64,000 bases of DNA. Source: SAR86 cluster bacterium. Lineage in GTDB: Bacteria; Pseudomonadota; Gammaproteobacteria; Magnimaribacterales; Magnimaribacteraceae. The stretch covers positions 963,517-1,027,516 of the forward strand of contig CP097969.1 in NCBI GenBank assembly GCA_023703575.1. The letters are read 5' to 3'. Below are positions 13,507 to 26,121 of the stretch, piece after piece (the first letter of the stretch is position 1; every line of letters begins with the position of its first letter). Both the position numbers and the translations under genes were made by a program. The notes beneath the pieces were generated by a model. The model did no database searches and was not told where the DNA came from. It saw nothing but the letters and a program-made list of their open reading frames with translations.

Positions 13507-14253
13507 TTAAGCTGTTTGCTTATCGTCTACAGCTGCCTTCCAAATCACAAGACCAAATAAGATTTTGTTGATGAAATCAGCAAGGTTATAAATTAAATTT
13601 AATGTATCTGCATCCACTGCACCCATTAGGTATCCAAAAACATAACCTAAAGGATAGATAGCCCAACCAACTACTATGATCAATAGCATTGAATTGTATG
13701 CTGTTTGGACAGAGGCACTGGTGGTAGCAACTACAGTTTTACCTGCTCCCATGTATAGTACATATATCATGTACAACCATGCTGCCATTCCAATGATAAA
13801 TGCTGGCAATGCTGCCATAACACCTGCTTCACCCATGTAACCAAAAATTAACATGACTAGTGAACCAAGTAAAAGTTGCCAGAATAAAGATCCAGCAACA
13901 ACTGTGACTGCTGCAAGTATCAAGTAGAACTCGACCATCTGCAGTGGTACTGTTAATAACCAGTCTATATATCTAAATACTGTAGGTGTTTCTCCAGTAT
14001 CAACCCAAACACCTCTCATGTATAGGTAGTGCCAAAAAGCTATACCGCAGATTAAACCTGCAACTGTTAATGAAGTTTTCCATTTGCCTTCTACATTGCT
14101 TCTTTCCGCAAAGAAAAAAACCGTAGCAGCCGCCATAGCAGCTGTAACTAGCCAAAAGGAAACGCCAACAAAATCGTCAGAATCTAAATCACCACCTGAA
14201 GCGGCAAATAGAGGAGCTGCGATCATGCTTGATAGAATCAATAAAGATTTCAT
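13507..14253 (-). CDS. Proteorhodopsin, blue-absorbing type light-driven proton pump
   Basis: The 248-residue seven-helix protein has a signal peptide (about 1-18). The key residues of proton-pumping proteorhodopsin are present: His75, proton acceptor Asp97 in RYIDWLL, proton donor Glu108 and the retinal Schiff-base Lys230 in FINKILFG. Residue 105, the main spectral tuning position, is Gln (VPLQMVEF), which in studied proteins gives blue absorption, where Leu gives green. No retinal synthesis genes (crt, blh) are in the window, so retinal must come from elsewhere. The gene is monocistronic, with its own promoter upstream and a terminator downstream. The start follows GGGAGAG. Confidence 0.97.
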   Translation of the reverse strand: MKSLLILSSMIAAPLFAASGGDLDSDDFVGVSFWLVTAAMAAATVFFFAERSNVEGKWKTSLTVAGLICGIAFWHYLYMRGVWVDTGETPTVFRYIDWLLTVPLQMVEFYLILAAVTVVAGSLFWQLLLGSLVMLIFGYMGEAGVMAALPAFIIGMAAWLYMIYVLYMGAGKTVVATTSASVQTAYNSMLLIIVVGWAIYPLGYVFGYLMGAVDADTLNLIYNLADFINKILFGLVIWKAAVDDKQTA

Positions 14254-17478: not shown

Positions 17479-17961
17479 ATGTCATTTAGCACCCCCGACT
17501 TGTCTGATGCAAATCCAGAGGCTCAGGCCCTTTCCCCTATTCTTAAAAACTTAGGAGGTAAGGAAATTTTCTGGGGGAAAATTGAAACGCTTCGATGTCC
17601 TGATGACAATTCCTTTGTTAAAGAGCTTTTAAATTCTGAGGGTGGAGGAAAAATTCTTGTTGTGGATGCAGATGCTATAACTACAGTCGCATTAATAGGA
17701 GATATGATCGCAGAAGCTGGAGTGAAGAATAATTGGAGTGGAATTGTGATAAATGGCTACGTCAGAGATATAGATGTCCTGAGTAAGCTTAATTTCGGTG
17801 TTCAAGCTCTTGGTACAATGCCAGTCAGGAGTGAAAAGAAAAACCAAGGGAAAATAGGGGTAGATATTTCCTTTGGCGGGTTAACTTTTTCAAGCGGTGA
17901 TTATGTCTATGCAGACAATAATGGACTTTTGCTTAGTAAAAAAGAGTTAAATCTTTCTTAG
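17479..17961 (+). CDS. RraA-like protein / hydroxymethyl-oxoglutarate aldolase family
   Basis: The 160-residue product has the RraA fold signature: VVDADAITTVALIGDMIAE, then the GIVINGYVRD loop, and VGVDISFGG-like C-terminal strands. In E. coli RraA inhibits RNase E, while sequence relatives are class II aldolases that cleave 4-hydroxy-4-methyl-2-oxoglutarate using the G..RD motif. The Arg-Asp pair (VRDID) is present, so aldolase or oxaloacetate decarboxylase activity is possible. Pairing with the amidohydrolase leans toward a metabolic role. The last bases overlap the convergent permease stop by 4. Confidence 0.82.
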   Translation: MSFSTPDLSDANPEAQALSPILKNLGGKEIFWGKIETLRCPDDNSFVKELLNSEGGGKILVVDADAITTVALIGDMIAEAGVKNNWSGIVINGYVRDIDVLSKLNFGVQALGTMPVRSEKKNQGKIGVDISFGGLTFSSGDYVYADNNGLLLSKKELNLS

Positions 17962-19142
17962 ATTGATCTTAACGCTTCAGTAATATCTCTTCTAGCGGCA
18001 TTCCATGCGGGGAACACCCCACCTATAAAACCTACAAGTAATGCCAAGGTGAGTCCTTGTTGAATGATCTCTCCTGTAACTGCAAAGGCAAATGCGGTCT
18101 GGGAGAAAGAAGCGCCAGCTAGCGTTGAAACAGTGTATCCGTTGAATAATATATAGGCTATAGCACCTCCTAATAAACCACCAATCGTGGCAAGTAATAA
18201 AGCCTCTATCAGTAGCGCAAGTAGAACGGTAGTGCCCTTAAATCCCAGAGCTCGGAGCGTTCCTATCTCGACCAATCTTGTAGATACAGCACTATACATG
18301 GTATTTAAAGCTGCAAAAACTGCACCGATTGCCATTATGTAACCTACTACTTGGCCAAAAACCTTAATCAAATCTGCTCCAGAGGACTGATTTTCATAAA
18401 AGTCACTTTCAGACTGAACTTTGAGCTCTAAGTTTGGGTAACTTTCCACAAATAATCCAACCTCATTGAATGAATCTGGAGAATCTAATTTTAAGATCAT
18501 GCTTGATGCCGAGGCTCCCCTTCTGAAAAGGCCTTGAGCGGTTGCTAAATCAGCCCAGATTTCTGACTCGTGAACATCACCATTACTTGAAAAAATTCCT
18601 ACAACTGTGGCAAAACTATCTCTTACTTTAATCTGATCTCCAATCTCAAGTCCTTCGTATTGATTATTAGCTCCTTTTCCAACTATTATTTCTGCTGTTC
18701 CAGTAGTAAAGTTTCTACCCTCGATGATATTAACTTCAGGACGAATTCTAAAACTTGCAGGTTGAACCCCTCTGATTGGTAAGTTTGATGTCGATTCCGC
18801 ACCTTTTTTCTTAAGGTCTATAATTGCAAATAACTCGGCCGCAATCATTGGCTCGCCATCTATAGATTTAATACCTGGAGAACTAGAGACAGTATCAAGC
18901 TCTGTCATAGCAACTCCACTGCTCAACTCCGAACTTGATCCATCTCTTAGAATAATTACTCTATCCTTTTCTCCTGTACTAGAAATTGTAGAACTTAGGC
19001 CCTCAGCCATGGCTAACAAGGAAACCATGACAGCTACCGACCCAGCTATCCCCACAATGATCACTAGTGAAGAACCTGATCTTTCTAGAACAGAGCGTAA
19101 ATTCATATTTGTAACCAATAATACTTGCCTAATAAAACTCAT
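17958..19142 (-). CDS. FtsX/MacB-type ABC permease, third in the row
   Basis: The 394-residue membrane protein has one N-terminal helix (about 21-45), a large periplasmic domain and three C-terminal helices (about 265-385). It ends with the FtsX-type stretch GVFPAWNAARRDITEALRSI. The topology matches LolC/MacB permeases, which move lipoproteins, antibiotics or peptides mechanically rather than by a pore. It starts 1 base after the preceding permease stop. It is distinct in sequence from the two upstream permeases, which resemble each other more. It is the last gene of the minus-strand unit. Confidence 0.87.
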   Translation of the reverse strand: MSFIRQVLLVTNMNLRSVLERSGSSLVIIVGIAGSVAVMVSLLAMAEGLSSTISSTGEKDRVIILRDGSSSELSSGVAMTELDTVSSSPGIKSIDGEPMIAAELFAIIDLKKKGAESTSNLPIRGVQPASFRIRPEVNIIEGRNFTTGTAEIIVGKGANNQYEGLEIGDQIKVRDSFATVVGIFSSNGDVHESEIWADLATAQGLFRRGASASSMILKLDSPDSFNEVGLFVESYPNLELKVQSESDFYENQSSGADLIKVFGQVVGYIMAIGAVFAALNTMYSAVSTRLVEIGTLRALGFKGTTVLLALLIEALLLATIGGLLGGAIAYILFNGYTVSTLAGASFSQTAFAFAVTGEIIQQGLTLALLVGFIGGVFPAWNAARRDITEALRSI

Positions 19143-19143
19143 A

Positions 19144-20292
19144 TTAATTTTTCCTCAAAGCATCGACCACGTTTAATCTCATAGCCGAAAGAGCCGGTAA
19201 AACTCCTGATATTAAAGCAGTGATAAAAGCAACTAAGATTGCACTTATTACAATAGATATAGAAAACTCTATCTCTCCTGAAAAACCTATGGCCACTCCA
19301 GAAAACATAGGGAACAATAGATAAGCTATCAAAACTCCTATTATCGCTCCAGCTACACACAACAAGAAAGACTCTGCTAAGACAAAGAGCATTATTAATC
19401 GATCAGGAAAACCGACTGCCTTCAATGCACCTAGTTCGGGAGTTCTCTCTCTAACTGCCTGGCTCATAGTATTTCCTGTTAATAAAAGGATTGTGAAAAA
19501 AGAAGCAGCCAAAACTGAATTAATAATTAAGCCTATATTTCCAATTTGTTCAGCAAACATACGACTGAAAGCTTCCTCTGTAGACGTCTTTGTTTCATCT
19601 AAAGAGTTCTTAAATAGCTCATCTATCTCCTTTGCAATAGATTCAGCCTGCTCTGGATTTTTTATTTTCACTATATAGTTACCAGGTCTACCCGTTTCGT
19701 AAAGTCTAGCCTCATCAAAATATTTCCAATTAATAAATGCTTCATCTTGTTCGCCACTGGTGTTATTTATATATGTGCCCACAAGATCAAACTCCCAAAC
19801 ACCTCCGCCCTTCTTAGGCCATATGTCAGCAATAATAGGAATCCTATCTCCTATTTTCCATCCAAACTGATCAGCTAAATCTTTCCCGACGATCATCCCT
19901 GTAATGTTTCGTGAAAAGGCTTCTTGCGCTCCTTCACTCAACTCCCATTCAGGATAAACATCAAAATAATTATCTGGAACAGGCCATTTTGGAAAAAAGT
20001 TTTGTCTTTCTTTGTAAGTACCTCCAAACCATTGACGCCAAACAACAGTATCTACACCTTCTACCATTTCTATTCTATTTTTATGAGCCATTGGAAGAGA
20101 TTCAGTAAAAGCAAGCCGAGACACAACTATGAGTCTATCTTGTCCGGCAAAATCTACCTCACTATTAAAAGCTACGGCAACTGATCTTCCCAAAGAAAAC
20201 AACAAGAATGCAGTGGCGATTGAAAAAATAGTCATAAAAGTTCTAATCTTTTTACGATTTATGCCTGATTTAACGATCATCCAATATTTCAT
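19144..20292 (-). CDS. FtsX/MacB-type ABC permease, second in the row
   Basis: The 382-residue product has an N-terminal helix (about 14-34), a periplasmic domain with a Trp-rich segment (VVWRQWFGG) and three C-terminal helices with the family end GVLPALSAMRLNVVDALRKN. Its start codon overlaps the stop of the upstream permease by one base (coordinate 20292), a sign of translational coupling. The N-terminal arrangement (IRTFMTI) and the C-terminal end (RLNVVDALR) resemble those of the first permease (LRTFLTI, RLRVVDALR), so the two likely arose by duplication. Confidence 0.87.
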   Translation of the reverse strand: MKYWMIVKSGINRKKIRTFMTIFSIATAFLLFSLGRSVAVAFNSEVDFAGQDRLIVVSRLAFTESLPMAHKNRIEMVEGVDTVVWRQWFGGTYKERQNFFPKWPVPDNYFDVYPEWELSEGAQEAFSRNITGMIVGKDLADQFGWKIGDRIPIIADIWPKKGGGVWEFDLVGTYINNTSGEQDEAFINWKYFDEARLYETGRPGNYIVKIKNPEQAESIAKEIDELFKNSLDETKTSTEEAFSRMFAEQIGNIGLIINSVLAASFFTILLLTGNTMSQAVRERTPELGALKAVGFPDRLIMLFVLAESFLLCVAGAIIGVLIAYLLFPMFSGVAIGFSGEIEFSISIVISAILVAFITALISGVLPALSAMRLNVVDALRKN

Positions 20293-21443
20293 TATCCCTC
20301 CCTAAGTGCATCTACAACTCTTAAGCGCAAGGCTTGATAAGCTGGAACAACAGCAGACATGAGTGCAATTAATAATCCTATCAGGAAACCACCTAAAACT
20401 ATTTCTAGCGATATAGAAACTGTATCTTCCAATATACCACCCGACATTATTTCTATGGCCGGAATAATTAAAGCTGTAACCAATAAACCCATCAGTACAG
20501 CAGAGAAACAAATTGTGACAGCTTCTAAAATGACCGAGATAAAAATAATATTGTCTTTATAACCAAGGCACTTAAGCACTCCTATGTCGCTTGTTCTTTC
20601 TCTTATAGATTGAGCAAGCGTATTTGAGGAAACCAGCAATATGGTAAAAAATACAGATAACAGTATTGAATTCACAATTAATTCAACATCTGCAATTTCT
20701 CCTGCCATTTCGACTGCAATCATTGATTCAGGACCTGATCTTGTAGCATAAGAAGAATTCATGAACTGCTCATCAATTTGTTTGGAAATTTTTTCACCCA
20801 CTTCAGGGGAAGTAGCTTTGACCATAATCGTGCCTAAAGTTCCCTTTTCACTCATTCTAGCTTCATCAAAAGCAGGCCAATTAATTATCGCTCCTAACTC
20901 ATCTCCTTTAATTTGTTTTGCTGTGTAAAATCCCACAACCTCAAAGGACCAATTGTAAGTTCCATCTATATTTAGCGATGATGATTCTGTGTTTAATCTA
21001 TCTCCTATTTTTAGACCCTTCTGATCTGCCATCAACTGACCAACTATTGTGGCATTTGGATTACTTTTTAAAGCAAGTATGGCTTGTTCCGTTGCTTCAA
21101 ATCTATCATATACATCGAAAAAATTTGGGCTAACGGCATAAGCGACTCCTTCCATCATACTTTCTATGCTATCTGATATAAGAAAATCCATGTACATCAC
21201 TTCCTCAACGCCTTCTAGTGTTTCTATGTAATTAACGTGAGAATAAGGCAGTTTTCCAAGCATATTGTATCTAGGCATAACTATTATGTTATCCGCAGAA
21301 AGGCCCTCTATAGAACCTGTAAAAAGGCCAGAAAGGGTATTTAAGGATCCGTACAGTACGAATGCAATAAACATAGACATTATTGTCAAAAAAGTTCTTA
21401 GTCTTTTTCTTATTAATCCTATCTTTACTAAGGTCCAATACAT
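20292..21443 (-). CDS. FtsX/MacB-type ABC permease, first in the row
   Basis: The 383-residue product shows the same layout as its neighbour: an N-terminal helix after KRLRTFLTI, a periplasmic domain of about 230 residues, and three C-terminal helices closing with VVPAYQALRLRVVDALREG. It overlaps the ATPase gene by one base at 21443 and the next permease by one base at 20292. The ATPase-permease coupling helix is expected after SIRERTSDIGVLK. As with all three permeases, the cargo is not visible. Confidence 0.87.
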   Translation of the reverse strand: MYWTLVKIGLIRKRLRTFLTIMSMFIAFVLYGSLNTLSGLFTGSIEGLSADNIIVMPRYNMLGKLPYSHVNYIETLEGVEEVMYMDFLISDSIESMMEGVAYAVSPNFFDVYDRFEATEQAILALKSNPNATIVGQLMADQKGLKIGDRLNTESSSLNIDGTYNWSFEVVGFYTAKQIKGDELGAIINWPAFDEARMSEKGTLGTIMVKATSPEVGEKISKQIDEQFMNSSYATRSGPESMIAVEMAGEIADVELIVNSILLSVFFTILLVSSNTLAQSIRERTSDIGVLKCLGYKDNIIFISVILEAVTICFSAVLMGLLVTALIIPAIEIMSGGILEDTVSISLEIVLGGFLIGLLIALMSAVVPAYQALRLRVVDALREG

Positions 21444-22117
21444 TAAGATGTCAGTTTTCCTTTGTCTAAATGTAAAGTCCTCTTGGCGGATTCAGCAGCT
21501 ACTGGATCATGAGTCACCATTAAGATGGTTTTGCCATGGTCGCGGTTTAATATCTGCAAGAGTTCTAATATTTCAGTAGCAGTATCTCGGTCCAGGTCAC
21601 CTGTTGGCTCGTCACAAACCAATATGCCAGGATCTGAAACAAGCGCTCTAGCAATTGCCACTCTTTGTTGTTGCCCGCCAGAAAGCTCATTAGGCTTATG
21701 ACCTCCTCTATCAGAAAGACCGACAACATCAAGAGCTGTAGTCACATGTTCCTTTCTTTGAGAGCTAGAAAGATTGGTTAAGAGAAGAGGGATCTCTATA
21801 TTTTTATTGGCAGTTAAAACTGGAAGAAGATTATAGAATTGAAAAATAAAACCTATATTAGTTGCTCTCCAGTCACTTAAGCCAGATGGGCTCATTTGTT
21901 CGAGGTGCTCTCCATTGACAACAACCTGTCCAGAAGTGGGTGAATCAAGTCCACCTATAAGGTTTAAAAGGGTTGATTTTCCCGAACCAGAAGGCCCCAT
22001 AAGAGCAAGAAAATCCCCTTTGGGTACCTCTAAGCTAAGGTCGTCTAATACAACAAGCGTTTCTCTTCCTCTTTCGTATGTTTTATTTACGGACTGAACC
22101 TCAATTAAGTTAGACAT
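21443..22117 (-). CDS. ABC transporter ATPase, LolD/MacB class
   Basis: The 224-residue ATPase has Walker A GPSGSGKST at 41-49, the Q-loop in FQFYNLLP, signature LSGGQ at 145-149, Walker B ending CDEPTGDLD with Glu170, and the switch His in MVTHDP. Length and sequence fit the LolD/FtsE/MacB class that pairs with FtsX-type permeases. It is the only ATPase for three permeases in the unit, so it must be shared or used in alternative complexes. It lies 13 bases downstream of the adaptor gene. Confidence 0.93.
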   Translation of the reverse strand: MSNLIEVQSVNKTYERGRETLVVLDDLSLEVPKGDFLALMGPSGSGKSTLLNLIGGLDSPTSGQVVVNGEHLEQMSPSGLSDWRATNIGFIFQFYNLLPVLTANKNIEIPLLLTNLSSSQRKEHVTTALDVVGLSDRGGHKPNELSGGQQQRVAIARALVSDPGILVCDEPTGDLDRDTATEILELLQILNRDHGKTILMVTHDPVAAESAKRTLHLDKGKLTS

Positions 22118-22130
22118 GATTACCTCTTTT

Positions 22131-23276
22131 TTATTTTATTATTACTTGTTGATTGTTTTCTAATTCATTATCAAATATCGCTACCACAGTCATTCCTGAT
22201 TTCAGACCATCTATTACTCTTGCATAATTTGCAGTTTCTTCGGCAACCTCTACTTTTGTGAGCCGAATTTTTGATCCTTCGAGCGCTTGAACAACTGACT
22301 GATCATCTTTAATAGCCACAGCTGCTAAAGGAATCATTACACCCTCTTTAACAATTTCAGGGCTTTTATTTTCTACTTTCCTCAAGAAAGACACTCTACT
22401 GCCCATATCGGGGAGAACCCTTTCATCCTTTTCAAGAAGAGCAATTCTAACTTTTACGGTTGCTTTGTTTCTATCAGCCGTAGGAATAATTGCTATAACT
22501 TCAGATGGTATGTCCCATTTAGGATATGCATTTAAATTTGTTATGACAGGTTGGCCTGGCTTTACTCGATTTATGAAGGCTTCATTTACATCTACTTCAA
22601 CTTCAAGAGAATCCATGTCAACAATTGTACAGATACCTGTATTAGTAAATCCGCCTCCAGCTGAGACTGGAGATATCATTTCGCCTGGCTGAGCTGCTTT
22701 GTATACAACCACTCCACTAAATGGAGCTAATATTTTCATATCTTGCACAACTTGCTTCCTAATAGCATTCAAGGCCTCTAAACCCTCTACAGAAGCCCTA
22801 GCTGCATCTAAAGCGGCTTGACTAGCTAGCTCATCTTTTGCCAATTCCTGAGTTCGATTAAATATTCGCTTAGCTTCATTGAGTTGCGACTGTGAGTAAT
22901 TCAAATCAGCTTGCATTGTACTATCGTCGAGTTGAGCTAATATTTGACCTTCCTCAACATACATACCTTCCTCAATAAATACCTTCATAACCTTTCCAGT
23001 CATTTTAGAAGAAACTGTTGCCCTCCTTCTAGCGACTACATAGCCTGAGGCATCAAGAATACTTGTAGCTGAAGCATCTGACATTTCAAGAGACTTAACT
23101 GTGAAAGTAGTCACTTCTTTAAGTTCATCATCTGATAAAAATAACCACCAAAAAAGGCCTACGATCAGAACAGATATGGCAAGTAAATATAGTTTACTAG
23201 ACTGTTGTCCTCCAGCTGCAGGAGGAGCAGATCTATCTATCTTTAAGTTATTGAGTAAATTTTCTCTATCACTCAT
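22131..23276 (-). CDS. Periplasmic adaptor (HlyD/MacA family membrane fusion protein)
   Basis: The 381-residue product has an N-terminal membrane anchor (about 29-47) and a biotinyl-lipoyl-like hairpin domain split by a coiled coil. The first half is GKVMKVFIEEGMYVEEGQIL, the coil spans about 125-175, and APFSGVVVYKAAQPGEMISP closes the hairpin. Beta-barrel and membrane-proximal domains follow. Such adaptors bridge an inner-membrane ABC exporter to an outer-membrane channel of the TolC type, which is not encoded here. It is next to the ATPase and permeases, so together they resemble MacAB. Confidence 0.9.
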   Translation of the reverse strand: MSDRENLLNNLKIDRSAPPAAGGQQSSKLYLLAISVLIVGLFWWLFLSDDELKEVTTFTVKSLEMSDASATSILDASGYVVARRRATVSSKMTGKVMKVFIEEGMYVEEGQILAQLDDSTMQADLNYSQSQLNEAKRIFNRTQELAKDELASQAALDAARASVEGLEALNAIRKQVVQDMKILAPFSGVVVYKAAQPGEMISPVSAGGGFTNTGICTIVDMDSLEVEVDVNEAFINRVKPGQPVITNLNAYPKWDIPSEVIAIIPTADRNKATVKVRIALLEKDERVLPDMGSRVSFLRKVENKSPEIVKEGVMIPLAAVAIKDDQSVVQALEGSKIRLTKVEVAEETANYARVIDGLKSGMTVVAIFDNELENNQQVIIK

Positions 23277-24314
23277 CTAAGTATCCATATTATCAATCCA
23301 CTTCTCTATGAGCTCAACAGCCTCATGATGCATTAAGGATCTACCAGACTCTGGCATCATGACTCCGGGATCAGTTGAAATCATTCTATGCAAAAGTATA
23401 GATTCTCTAGAATTTCCAGGTGCAATGGAAAACTTATGTCCTCCACTTCCCCTTCCTGTAGCAACTGGCTTTTTATTAATTCCTAAATGCTTAGGTCGAC
23501 TTTCAGTTAAATCTAAGTAAAGTCCAGTAGAGTTAGCCCCTCCCGTTGAAATATGACAATGGCCACAATTAATATCTAAATAAGATCTAACTCTGTCGTC
23601 CAAAGAATAAGTTTGGTCACTCCAATCTACAGGTGTATTAAGATCAATTTCAATACCATCTATGTAATCAAGTCTCATCCATTTAGTTAATTGATTAATT
23701 GATCCGTCTTGATAATCAAATACTTTATTGAGATTCCTTGCTTTTGGTCCAATTGGCATTACGGCATCATTATAAGAATGACATTCTTTACACTGATTTT
23801 TATTAGGTACTCTGTATCTTACTGATCGCTTCTCCCCTTCAAAATCTATCCATTCATTAAGGATTGTTTTGCCGGCTTTTTTTATAAATGCCTCATTTTG
23901 TTCATCATTCCAAGCGTAAGATACAGCTTCCCAGCCTGTTTGCTTTCTAAGTAACAATCTTGTCTCCATAAGTCTCTTTCCAAGGGATAAATTTCTTTCA
24001 TCAACTGGATAATAAAAGGTTTTGATCAAAGCTGATCCTACAGGAAAGTTAAATACCTGATCTTTTCTAAAGGATGCCTTTTTACCCTCTGGTATATATA
24101 CCCATCTTTGTTTATATGAGTAGTCAGAAAAAAGTGAAGAAATTAACTCATATGGAACAACTCTTTCAGACGGGATTTGAGCTTGAGAATCTTTAAAGAA
24201 TGAAAATTCTGATAGTTTTTTAGGAAATTTTTCCTGCAAAATTATTTCATTTTCAATAGCATACAGAAAATTTATAGTAAAAGTTATTAGAAAAAATAAT
24301 GTCAATTTTTTCAT
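23277..24314 (-). CDS. Secreted di-haem cytochrome-like protein (partner of beta-helix protein)
   Basis: The 345-residue product has a signal peptide (about 1-19) and two CxxCH haem c motifs: CKECH at 175-179 and CGHCH at 250-254. A late Met-containing GVMMPESGRS (about 318-326) could supply an axial ligand. Sequence and length fit the family I recall as TIGR03806 (HNE_0200/SO2930 type), found next to or fused with a beta-helix protein. Family function is unknown. The stop of this gene is directly before the adaptor start, so electron transfer and export genes are in one unit. The family name is from memory. Confidence 0.78.
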   Translation of the reverse strand: MKKLTLFFLITFTINFLYAIENEIILQEKFPKKLSEFSFFKDSQAQIPSERVVPYELISSLFSDYSYKQRWVYIPEGKKASFRKDQVFNFPVGSALIKTFYYPVDERNLSLGKRLMETRLLLRKQTGWEAVSYAWNDEQNEAFIKKAGKTILNEWIDFEGEKRSVRYRVPNKNQCKECHSYNDAVMPIGPKARNLNKVFDYQDGSINQLTKWMRLDYIDGIEIDLNTPVDWSDQTYSLDDRVRSYLDINCGHCHISTGGANSTGLYLDLTESRPKHLGINKKPVATGRGSGGHKFSIAPGNSRESILLHRMISTDPGVMMPESGRSLMHHEAVELIEKWIDNMDT

Positions 24315-24319
24315 AGCTC

Positions 24320-25534
24320 TTAATTCAAAATCACCTCTGGTAAGGGCCTAACTTTCCCTTCATAGGCTTTTATATCTCTCTCTACTGGATCAAAAAAAGG
24401 AAGGATATATTTGATTGGATTAAGTGTTAAAAAAGTTGCATCTCCATTATTTGAAATAACAAGTCGTTCATCATCGGGTTGTCCGAATATGATTTGGTTC
24501 ATTGGCAGGATCCCATCCCAAAATATATCGGGCATGTTTCCATCAGAGAGTTCAAATAGTATTGCTGCAAGTTCTCCCGTATCTATATCTGGATCAAAAC
24601 CGCCGTCACCAAATCTATTTCCGTGAATCTGAATGGACTTAGGGTGAGGATTATAGTTTTCATCGTCAGTTGCATAACCATAAGTGACTATCGAGAGATT
24701 CACAGTGCCATTTCCGTATATGTCATTATCAAATACTTCAACATCAGAATTAGCTTGAATTATTATTCCAGTGCCCCTTGGCACTTCTCCGACTATGTTG
24801 CCTTCTGGAGCAAAGTTATCTGTATCATTATTAATAGCTTTATTTCTAAAGACTCTTACATTATGACCACCTTGTTGGGGTAAATCAGGAAGATCAAACA
24901 CCAAGATCCCTCCTGTATTATGTGAAGCTAAATTATCAAATACATCCGCGTAATAAGAATTTTCTATCTCTATTCCAGCCACATTATATTGTGCAATACT
25001 ATTTTTGACGATTATGTTCCTAGACTGTCCAACGTAAATGCCCGCATCTGAGGCCCCTATGGCCACACAACCGTCTATAAGGACATTTTGCGACTCGACA
25101 GGATAAAACCCATAGGCTCCATTAGTTTCCTTTGGTCCGCCAGTCCATTCCGTTCGTAGACGAATCATATTTATTCCGTCAGCTCCAATTACCTTAATAG
25201 CATCTCCTGTAGCATCCAAAATGGCAAAGTCTCGAAGAGTAACTCTGTCAGAAGTAACTAAAAGACCTTGAGCTCCAGATATTTGATTTCCAAAGTTTAA
25301 TATTGTGTCGTTTATTCCAGATCCCTCAAAAATAACATCATCAATATCTAAAGAAATACCATCCTCAAAAAAATATTCTCCAGGCTCCAAGGTAAGCACA
25401 TCACCAGGTTGCATTTCTATGAGCGCTTCTTGTATTTTCTCGGAAGAATTCTCGCTTGGACCAAGCAAAAGTTGTCTTGCTTCCAAGGCAAAAGAAGAGA
25501 CACTAAGTAAGAAGAATAGAAAGAAATTTTGCAT
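24320..25534 (-). CDS. Secreted right-handed parallel beta-helix protein
   Basis: The 404-residue product has a signal peptide (about 1-19) and then many repeated turns with Asn/Asp/Gly at bends, for example VLIDGCVAIGASDAGIYVGQ, IIVKNSIAQYNVAGIEIE and VFDNLASHNTGGILV. This pattern is typical of pectate-lyase-like beta-helices with NosD-type repeats. It fits the family I recall as TIGR03805, which travels with the di-haem protein. Carbohydrate cleavage cannot be claimed. It is the first gene of the seven-gene unit, five bases ahead of its partner, with 131 bases upstream shared with a divergent gene. Confidence 0.8.
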   Translation of the reverse strand: MQNFFLFFLLSVSSFALEARQLLLGPSENSSEKIQEALIEMQPGDVLTLEPGEYFFEDGISLDIDDVIFEGSGINDTILNFGNQISGAQGLLVTSDRVTLRDFAILDATGDAIKVIGADGINMIRLRTEWTGGPKETNGAYGFYPVESQNVLIDGCVAIGASDAGIYVGQSRNIIVKNSIAQYNVAGIEIENSYYADVFDNLASHNTGGILVFDLPDLPQQGGHNVRVFRNKAINNDTDNFAPEGNIVGEVPRGTGIIIQANSDVEVFDNDIYGNGTVNLSIVTYGYATDDENYNPHPKSIQIHGNRFGDGGFDPDIDTGELAAILFELSDGNMPDIFWDGILPMNQIIFGQPDDERLVISNNGDATFLTLNPIKYILPFFDPVERDIKAYEGKVRPLPEVILN

Positions 25535-25665
25535 TTTTCCCCATTTTTACAATATTTATATGTTAATTATAGTAGATTTATATAAAAGTTATGAGTTATA
25601 AAATTTACAGAACTTTTTTATTTCTATTTTCCTGATAAAGTTTGTAAAAGTAAGGATTAGATAAT

Positions 25666-26121
25666 ATGAACTTTGAGACAATAATAATAATTTTGCAAAC
25701 TGTTGGACCATTTACAGTATTAGTTACTGTCTACTTTCTTGTAACAGAGTTAAAAGAGCAAAATAGAGTAGCTAGAGCAAATGCAAGGCAGAATATTGCA
25801 GATAGCCACCAAAAACTTACATTAGCGGGCCTGAATAAAAGACTAATTGAAATTAAAGTAAAACTGAGAAAAGGAGAAGAGCTCACTGAAGAAGAAGATG
25901 CAGCTTACTTAACCCACTTTTCAGCGATACTTAGAGCAAGACAAAGCCAACACTATCAATACACTATTGGAATGCTCGATGAATCAGAATGGTCAGCAAT
26001 GCTCTCCTCTTTTAGAACGCTTTTAAAAGATCAAAAAAATTTAGAGATATGGACATGGGTATCGCCCACCTTTCCAGAAGACTTTGTTGAGTTGGTAGAA
26101 AAAGAAAGAATGAAAATATAG
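25666..26121 (+). CDS. Small membrane-anchored protein of unknown function
   Basis: The 151-residue product is not recognised. It has one N-terminal membrane helix (about 5-26), followed by a charged, mostly helical cytoplasmic or periplasmic part rich in Glu, Lys and Arg. It includes ELKEQNRVARANARQNIADS and a late Trp-rich EIWTWVSPTFPEDF. It lies 12 bases before the EAL gene and is divergent from the beta-helix unit. A role in the adjacent signalling cluster is possible but rests only on position. Confidence 0.7.
   Translation: MNFETIIIILQTVGPFTVLVTVYFLVTELKEQNRVARANARQNIADSHQKLTLAGLNKRLIEIKVKLRKGEELTEEEDAAYLTHFSAILRARQSQHYQYTIGMLDESEWSAMLSSFRTLLKDQKNLEIWTWVSPTFPEDFVELVEKERMKI

Follow-up and report, generated by a model that had tools for sequence, protein, structure and literature searches.

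The stretch of DNA analysed here (hereafter the window) comprises 64,000 nucleotides, positions 963517-1027516 of the single-contig genome (1,591,815 bases) of a SAR86-cluster relative, and it holds on its minus strand a row of seven tightly packed open reading frames (ORFs) spanning 17958-25534. In transcription order, a beta-helix protein and a di-haem cytochrome are followed by the adaptor and ATPase of an exporter and by three permeases:

24320-25534, minus strand: BH, a right-handed parallel beta-helix protein of 404 residues (TIGR03805; PF13229) with a hydrophobic N-terminus
23277-24314, minus strand: CytC, a di-haem c-type cytochrome of 345 residues (TIGR03806, SO2930 family) with a hydrophobic N-terminus
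22131-23276, minus strand: MFP, a periplasmic adaptor (membrane fusion protein) of 381 residues with one N-terminal hydrophobic segment by hydropathy
21443-22117, minus strand: ATPase of LolD/MacB type, 224 residues (PF00005), with Walker A at 41 and LSGGQ at 145
20292-21443, minus strand: perm1 (permease A'), 383 residues, MacB_PCD and FtsX domains, best read as a SAR86-specific duplicate of permease A
19144-20292, minus strand: perm2 (permease A), 382 residues, MacB_PCD and FtsX domains, with relatives in 49 non-SAR86 loci
17958-19142, minus strand: perm3 (permease B), 394 residues, MacB_PCD and FtsX domains, in a clade apart (support 100/100)

The junctions between these genes, in the same order, measure +5, 0, +13, -1, -1 and +1 bases. 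None of the seven is a chance ORF, because the ratio of non-synonymous to synonymous substitution (dN/dS) against one congener (L144; L and G numbers denote loci and genomes) lies at 0.02-0.10 for all of them; the closest match of perm2 in a scan of genome contigs is 100% identical. Promoter-like sites within 17800-25800 number 29 (mean 24.1, standard deviation 4.7) and terminator-like sites 5 (mean 4.5, standard deviation 1.9), both near chance.

Both leading proteins exceed the curated cut-offs of the families under which the initial annotation had placed them, BH with 395.4 bits against TIGR03805 (cut-off 141.5) and CytC with 367.7 bits against TIGR03806 (cut-off 313.3). CytC carries exactly two CxxCH motifs, CKECH at 175 and CGHCH at 250, and in 29 aligned members both motifs and M320 are invariant. 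The best 15-residue spans at the N-termini of BH and CytC reach a hydrophobicity of 1.95 and 2.11, and the best 19-residue spans 1.52 and 1.46; judging by these termini and by family membership, both proteins may be secreted. The structure model of BH, with a mean predicted local distance difference test score (pLDDT) of 70, shows strands of beta-helix type. Among the exporter proteins, the adaptor surpasses the cut-off of the RND_mfp model TIGR01730 (165.8 bits, cut-off 94.9) and stays under that of the MacA model (51.5 bits, cut-off 342), and the ATPase finds its best NCBIfam match in LolD (TIGR02211) at 238.6 bits, under the equivalog cut-off of 307.75. All three permeases exceed the gathering scores of MacB_PCD (PF12704) and FtsX (PF02687), scoring 26-34 bits with the MacB model (cut-off 966) and 25-48 bits with the LolC/LolE equivalogs (362.45), in each case below the cut-off. 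Four hydrophobic segments are seen in perm2 and four in perm3, and perm1 has five peaks, two of which overlap. With both domains and four predicted transmembrane segments, the permeases have the features of type VII ATP-binding cassette (ABC) transporters, the MacB/FtsX/LolCE superfamily. A single TolC-type (OEP) gene is located elsewhere in the genome. The ORFs, domains and family profile scores thus bear out the composition first described for the row, including its three separate permeases with a single ATPase.

TIGR03806 proteins are present in 26 of the 35 genomes of the window's SAR86 family (f1; the sister SAR86 families are f2-f4), in 87 of the 151 genomes sampled from the order (83 above cut-off) and in 46 of the 398 sampled from the phylum (37 above cut-off). 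The comparison covered 24 loci from f1, 16 from f2/f3 and 40 from elsewhere in the phylum. The last came from 39 genomes; of the 45 there with a match, two with full matches (G208, G225) and four whose matches were all weak were left out. The adaptor adjoins CytC in every one of the 26 f1 genomes with CytC, namely in the 24 loci, in the window and in G091, where broken cytochrome fragments stand at a contig end with the adaptor adjacent. A linkage confined to this genome, the outcome that the initial annotation had set against its own proposal, was accordingly not found. Adaptor and permease together lie beside CytC in 23 of the 24 f1 loci (the contig of L126 stops after the adaptor), in 0 of 16 f2/f3 loci and in 0 of 40 loci outside the order. 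All seven genes are present by label in 20 of the 24 f1 loci; contig ends truncate L126, L131 and L135, and in L033 perm1 and perm2 are run together by a frameshift. Split genes also occur, perm1 by an in-frame stop in G115 and perm2 in G106.

The two parts of the row are also found apart. In a hand tally from profile searches of the 151 order genomes, where a strong exporter means more than 300 bits with the permease-A model, 32 genomes have one (29 from f1 and three from f2, genus g19, SAR86B). CytC is also present in 28 of these 32, and in two (G078, G098) exporter and pair stand on separate contigs. The exporter occurs without CytC in G009, G140, G053 and G103; in G053 and G103 the contig stops at perm1 or shortly beyond it. 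When nine of the genomes in this tally were searched with TIGR03805, G053 proved to have BH on a different contig, and G009, G103 and G140 gave no match. No exporter was detected in 59 of the 87 order genomes with a CytC match, the match in G102 being a weak CytC fragment and many of these genomes being incomplete, and among the loci compared the exporter is adjacent in 0 of 56 CytC loci outside f1. Exporters without the pair are found in four SAR86B loci and, as judged from flanks no longer than 8 kb, in all 49 non-SAR86 loci; in three genomes outside the order (G181, G240, G304), CytC and permease A lie on different contigs. G009 (L145 4741-5040; L225) retains the flank upstream of BH and the beginning of that gene, then the last codons of CytC, then an intact exporter. 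This running of the BH start into a 3' stub of CytC indicates a deletion of the pair that spared the exporter, and the exporter genes of G009 have a dN/dS of 0-0.064 against a congener.

Since both modules also occur apart, linkage alone does not show that the pump serves the pair. We favour, with moderate confidence, a history in which a single event in one SAR86 family brought two independent modules together and the resulting operon-like row has been maintained ever since, the pair being a redox module and the exporter a type VII transporter with alternative A subunits. Both modules are of kinds already known, one of them with a doubled subunit, and what is specific to the family is their join.

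The three permeases, which the initial annotation had called unusual, are explained by the history of permease A in the SAR86 lineage and not by a new architecture. A permease-A scan of genome contigs returned 237 relatives. Among the best 79 loci, which were analysed (30 SAR86, 49 non-SAR86), the permeases outside SAR86 are arranged as A-B in 44 of 49, as A-B-A-B in four and as A alone, at a contig end, in one; 45 of the 49 have adaptor and ATPase genes ahead of the permeases, and three of the other four loci start at a contig end. These stand-alone exporters, for example those of Nevskia, Pseudoxanthomonas and Lysobacter, have the same parts in the same order as the SAR86 row and differ in having two permeases, or an A-B-A-B tandem with one ATPase in four Nevskia loci (L207, L211, L215, L218), and no linked beta-helix or cytochrome gene within the flanks. 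The SAR86 loci show A'-A-B in 26 of 30, and the remaining four hold the same set broken by frameshift, stop, split ORF or contig end; within the 79 loci, perm1 adjoins perm2 in SAR86 only. In the permease-A tree perm1 forms one clade (100/100), and the A permeases from outside lie on one side of a branch with 98/96 support; when permease B is included, perm1 is again one clade (100/99), placed on the A side, and permease B forms its own (100/100). The dN/dS of perm1 against L144, 0.047, indicates purifying selection. Taken together, these results make a doubling of permease A, within the SAR86 lineage and in a known type of exporter, the best account of the three permeases. The 768-residue ORF of L033 that joins perm1 and perm2 was considered as a sign of a perm1:perm2 dimer and dropped; compared with the congener L135 it carries one additional base close to the perm1 end, so it results from a frameshift and may reflect a sequencing error. 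At L217 (8001-10342), an A-B pair was seen with neither adaptor nor ATPase detected nearby.

As for the pair, BH adjoins CytC in 24 of 24 f1 loci, in 16 of 16 f2/f3 loci and in 30 of the 40 loci outside the order. The two form one ORF in six of those 40, and in four CytC lies inside a larger protein without BH, joined to a glucose/sorbosone dehydrogenase (GSDH) domain of the pyrroloquinoline quinone (PQQ) type and, in two cases, to CBM26 starch-binding repeats. The natural fusions indicate that BH and CytC work as one unit, and we infer an electron-transfer pair that oxidises or handles an extracellular, probably carbohydrate, substrate. On a Novosphingobium plasmid, the pair lies amid TonB receptors, alcohol and aldehyde dehydrogenases and a PQQ-dependent alcohol dehydrogenase, with an IS5 transposase and arsenic genes adjoining. 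The SAR86 row agrees with the TIGR03805/TIGR03806 pair, whose cytochrome family NCBIfam names after Shewanella oneidensis SO_2930, in scores above both curated cut-offs, order, close spacing and the two CxxCH motifs; SAR86 members differ in that in f1 the exporter comes next and that most lack a lipobox, which is found for BH in 1/24 f1, 0/16 f2/f3 and 10/27 outside proteins and for CytC in 1/24, 0/16 and 15/32, respectively. At L114 (6380-13489) and L120 (6720-13193), proteins of more than 2,100 residues combine CBM26, PQQ-type GSDH, a TIGR03806 cytochrome and PSD/PSCyt domains, and at L038 (17370-18150) two small ORFs, one of the phospholipid-methyltransferase family (PF04191), separate BH from CytC.

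Published studies place SO_2930 and SO_2931 at the Shewanella outer membrane (PMC4837345), give the same location for SO_2931 (PMC12175506) and term the latter a di-haem outer-membrane lipoprotein (PMC5357785); SO_2931 would be a fused BH-CytC member like that of L082. TIGR03805 is listed for Bcam1339 of a Burkholderia exopolysaccharide cluster (PMC3584217) and for a streptococcal protein bearing a carbohydrate-binding module (PMC5847202), and the passages concerned mention no cytochrome partner. Among the matches listed for open-licence literature, no description was found of the seven-gene row, of a beta-helix protein paired with a di-haem cytochrome or of a MacB-type exporter with three permeases, nor any mention of SAR86 with PQQ or exporters. 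A PQQ sugar dehydrogenase as the obligate donor of CytC in SAR86 was considered and rejected, as its presence does not track the pair. The flanks of the pair outside SAR86, sampled as 58 downstream and 50 upstream proteins from 64 ORFs on each side (two genes per side, a weak test), contain TonB receptors in 5/58 and 2/50, respectively, and no FtsX/MacB among the 25 families listed per side.

In the favoured scheme, BH would bind or act upon a substrate outside the cell, probably a glycan, with the di-haem CytC carrying electrons for it; both would leave the cytoplasm by Sec. A homodimer of the LolD-like ATPase would drive a heterodimer of permease A and permease B, and the adaptor ring would probably dock on the single TolC-type channel of the genome, so that movement of the periplasmic domains pushes substrate through the adaptor to TolC. 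A review describes members of the MacB family as homodimers, LolCE-like heterodimers and fused pairs, and mechanotransmission as the ATP-driven closing of the ATPase dimer that moves the periplasmic domains of the permeases (PMC5985334). Doubling of permease A would yield two alternative heterodimers, perm2:perm3 and perm1:perm3, with a common ATPase and adaptor. The likeliest cargo of the exporter is small compounds from the periplasm or the membrane, and its link to the pair probably serves co-regulation and not export or assembly of the pair. The neighbourhood outside SAR86 was tried as a guide to the cargo and gave no recurrent family, with a maximum of 2/55 upstream and 3/50 downstream proteins (sampled from 74 and 87 ORFs, those omitted being mainly short or doubtful; two genes per side, again a weak test). 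In SAR86B, one gene cluster lies directly upstream of the stand-alone three-permease exporter in 4/4 loci (L165, L167-L169), and the member scanned (L165 4115-4963) belongs to the fatty-acid hydroxylase family (PF04116), a faint hint of a lipid-like cargo.

Several observations weigh against parts of this interpretation. Six genera retain the linkage, and this persistence speaks for a functional or regulatory tie of some kind between the modules. The isolate name of G009 suggests a single-amplified genome, in which the deletion could be chimaeric, and its exporter may have diverged in part before the pair was lost. As for the doubling, a clade of perm1 with SAR86 perm2 is neither rejected (approximately unbiased test, p 0.498) nor shown, and perm2 does not form one clade in the tree that includes permease B; the perm1 search of 369 class genomes gave matches at E<=1e-40 in 23 non-SAR86 genomes, one each and all below this genome's own perm2, with five candidates scored in many genomes, where second copies could be missed. 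Regarding the role of the pair, the nearest solved folds of the BH model are polysaccharide lyases, epimerases and glycoside hydrolases at weak similarity (template modelling score 0.24-0.51), and the CytC model (pLDDT 45) was unusable, so no fold search was run from it. Nor are the fusions all independent: one genus accounts for three of the six that join BH and CytC, and the four CytC-GSDH loci stem from only three genomes. Finally, full-strength GSDH genes are found in SAR86 whether or not the pair is present, and f2, a family that has the pair, shows mostly weak matches only.

An exporter dedicated to the pair, whether for export or assembly of BH and CytC themselves or for expelling their substrate or product, would agree with the tight, ordered linkage, pair first, in the 26 f1 genomes with CytC across six genera. 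It is nevertheless unlikely, given the many order genomes with CytC and no detected exporter, the lack of adjacency in CytC loci outside f1 and the exporters that stand without the pair in SAR86B, in all 49 non-SAR86 loci and in G009; moreover, with their hydrophobic N-termini BH and CytC would leave by Sec. The same distribution gives no support to the proposal of the initial annotation, in which the exporter moves the pair or assembles it. In a weaker form, restricted to f1, the exporter may export the product of the pair. A bolder variant, which we regard as speculative and unlikely, holds that one operon encodes perm1:perm3 and perm2:perm3 exporters with common ATPase and adaptor, by which a streamlined marine bacterium switches substrate through swapping half of the permease, and that in one SAR86 family they are coupled to the beta-helix/di-haem oxidation pair, removing its product.

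Chance neighbourhood would mean that the modules share a strand and are transcribed apart, the adaptor having its own promoter. The CytC-MFP gap in f1 does vary, from -28 (an effect of ORF start) to +82 bases, and reaches 858 in one f1 genome, G065, where a TetR-type gene is inserted between CytC and the adaptor (L033 8420-9076); TetR-type regulators often adjoin efflux pumps. A promoter-like site matching 9 of 12 positions is found at 23317-23289. Such sites are at chance level, however, and the gap is zero in the window and several relatives, with the order conserved in 26 genomes, which leaves this explanation improbable. A NosDFY-like unit, in which BH docks on the ABC permeases to hand over a ligand, for instance a metal, and the cytochrome serves as redox partner, shares with the row a beta-helix protein near an ABC transporter and is suggested by weak NosD matches of BH (PF05048, 33.6 bits, gathering score 23.6; TIGR04247, 29.7 bits, under the NCBIfam cut-off of 300), but is very improbable, as NosY is an ABC-2-type permease, unlike the MacB_PCD/FtsX permeases here, and among the loci compared the exporter stands beside a beta-helix gene in one family only, so that the linkage is not general.

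The exporter of the favoured two-module reading can be set beside two further known systems. With MacAB-TolC it shares the adaptor, MacB_PCD and FtsX permeases and one TolC-type gene in the genome, whereas MacAB has its ATPase fused to a single, homodimeric permease and the SAR86 row has a separate ATPase, three differing permeases and an adaptor under the MacA cut-off. LolCDE is similar in its separate LolD-like ATPase and two differing permeases, A and B, and unlike the SAR86 row lacks the adaptor gene and third permease, the SAR86 proteins also scoring under the Lol equivalog cut-offs. A gene row resembling one system can thus be two modules brought together in a single lineage. The doubled subunit of this type VII exporter offers a natural case for testing pairing rules, and the fusions of beta-helix with cytochrome, and of cytochrome with PQQ sugar dehydrogenase and starch-binding domains, point to a testable role for a pair so far named by its domains.

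Upstream of BH, a divergent plus-strand gene (25666-26121, 151 residues), present in part of the f1 loci, has no Pfam match. Elsewhere in the window, a rhodopsin gene lies on the minus strand at 13507-14253 (PF01036, 146.6 bits), which we take from its context to be a proteorhodopsin.

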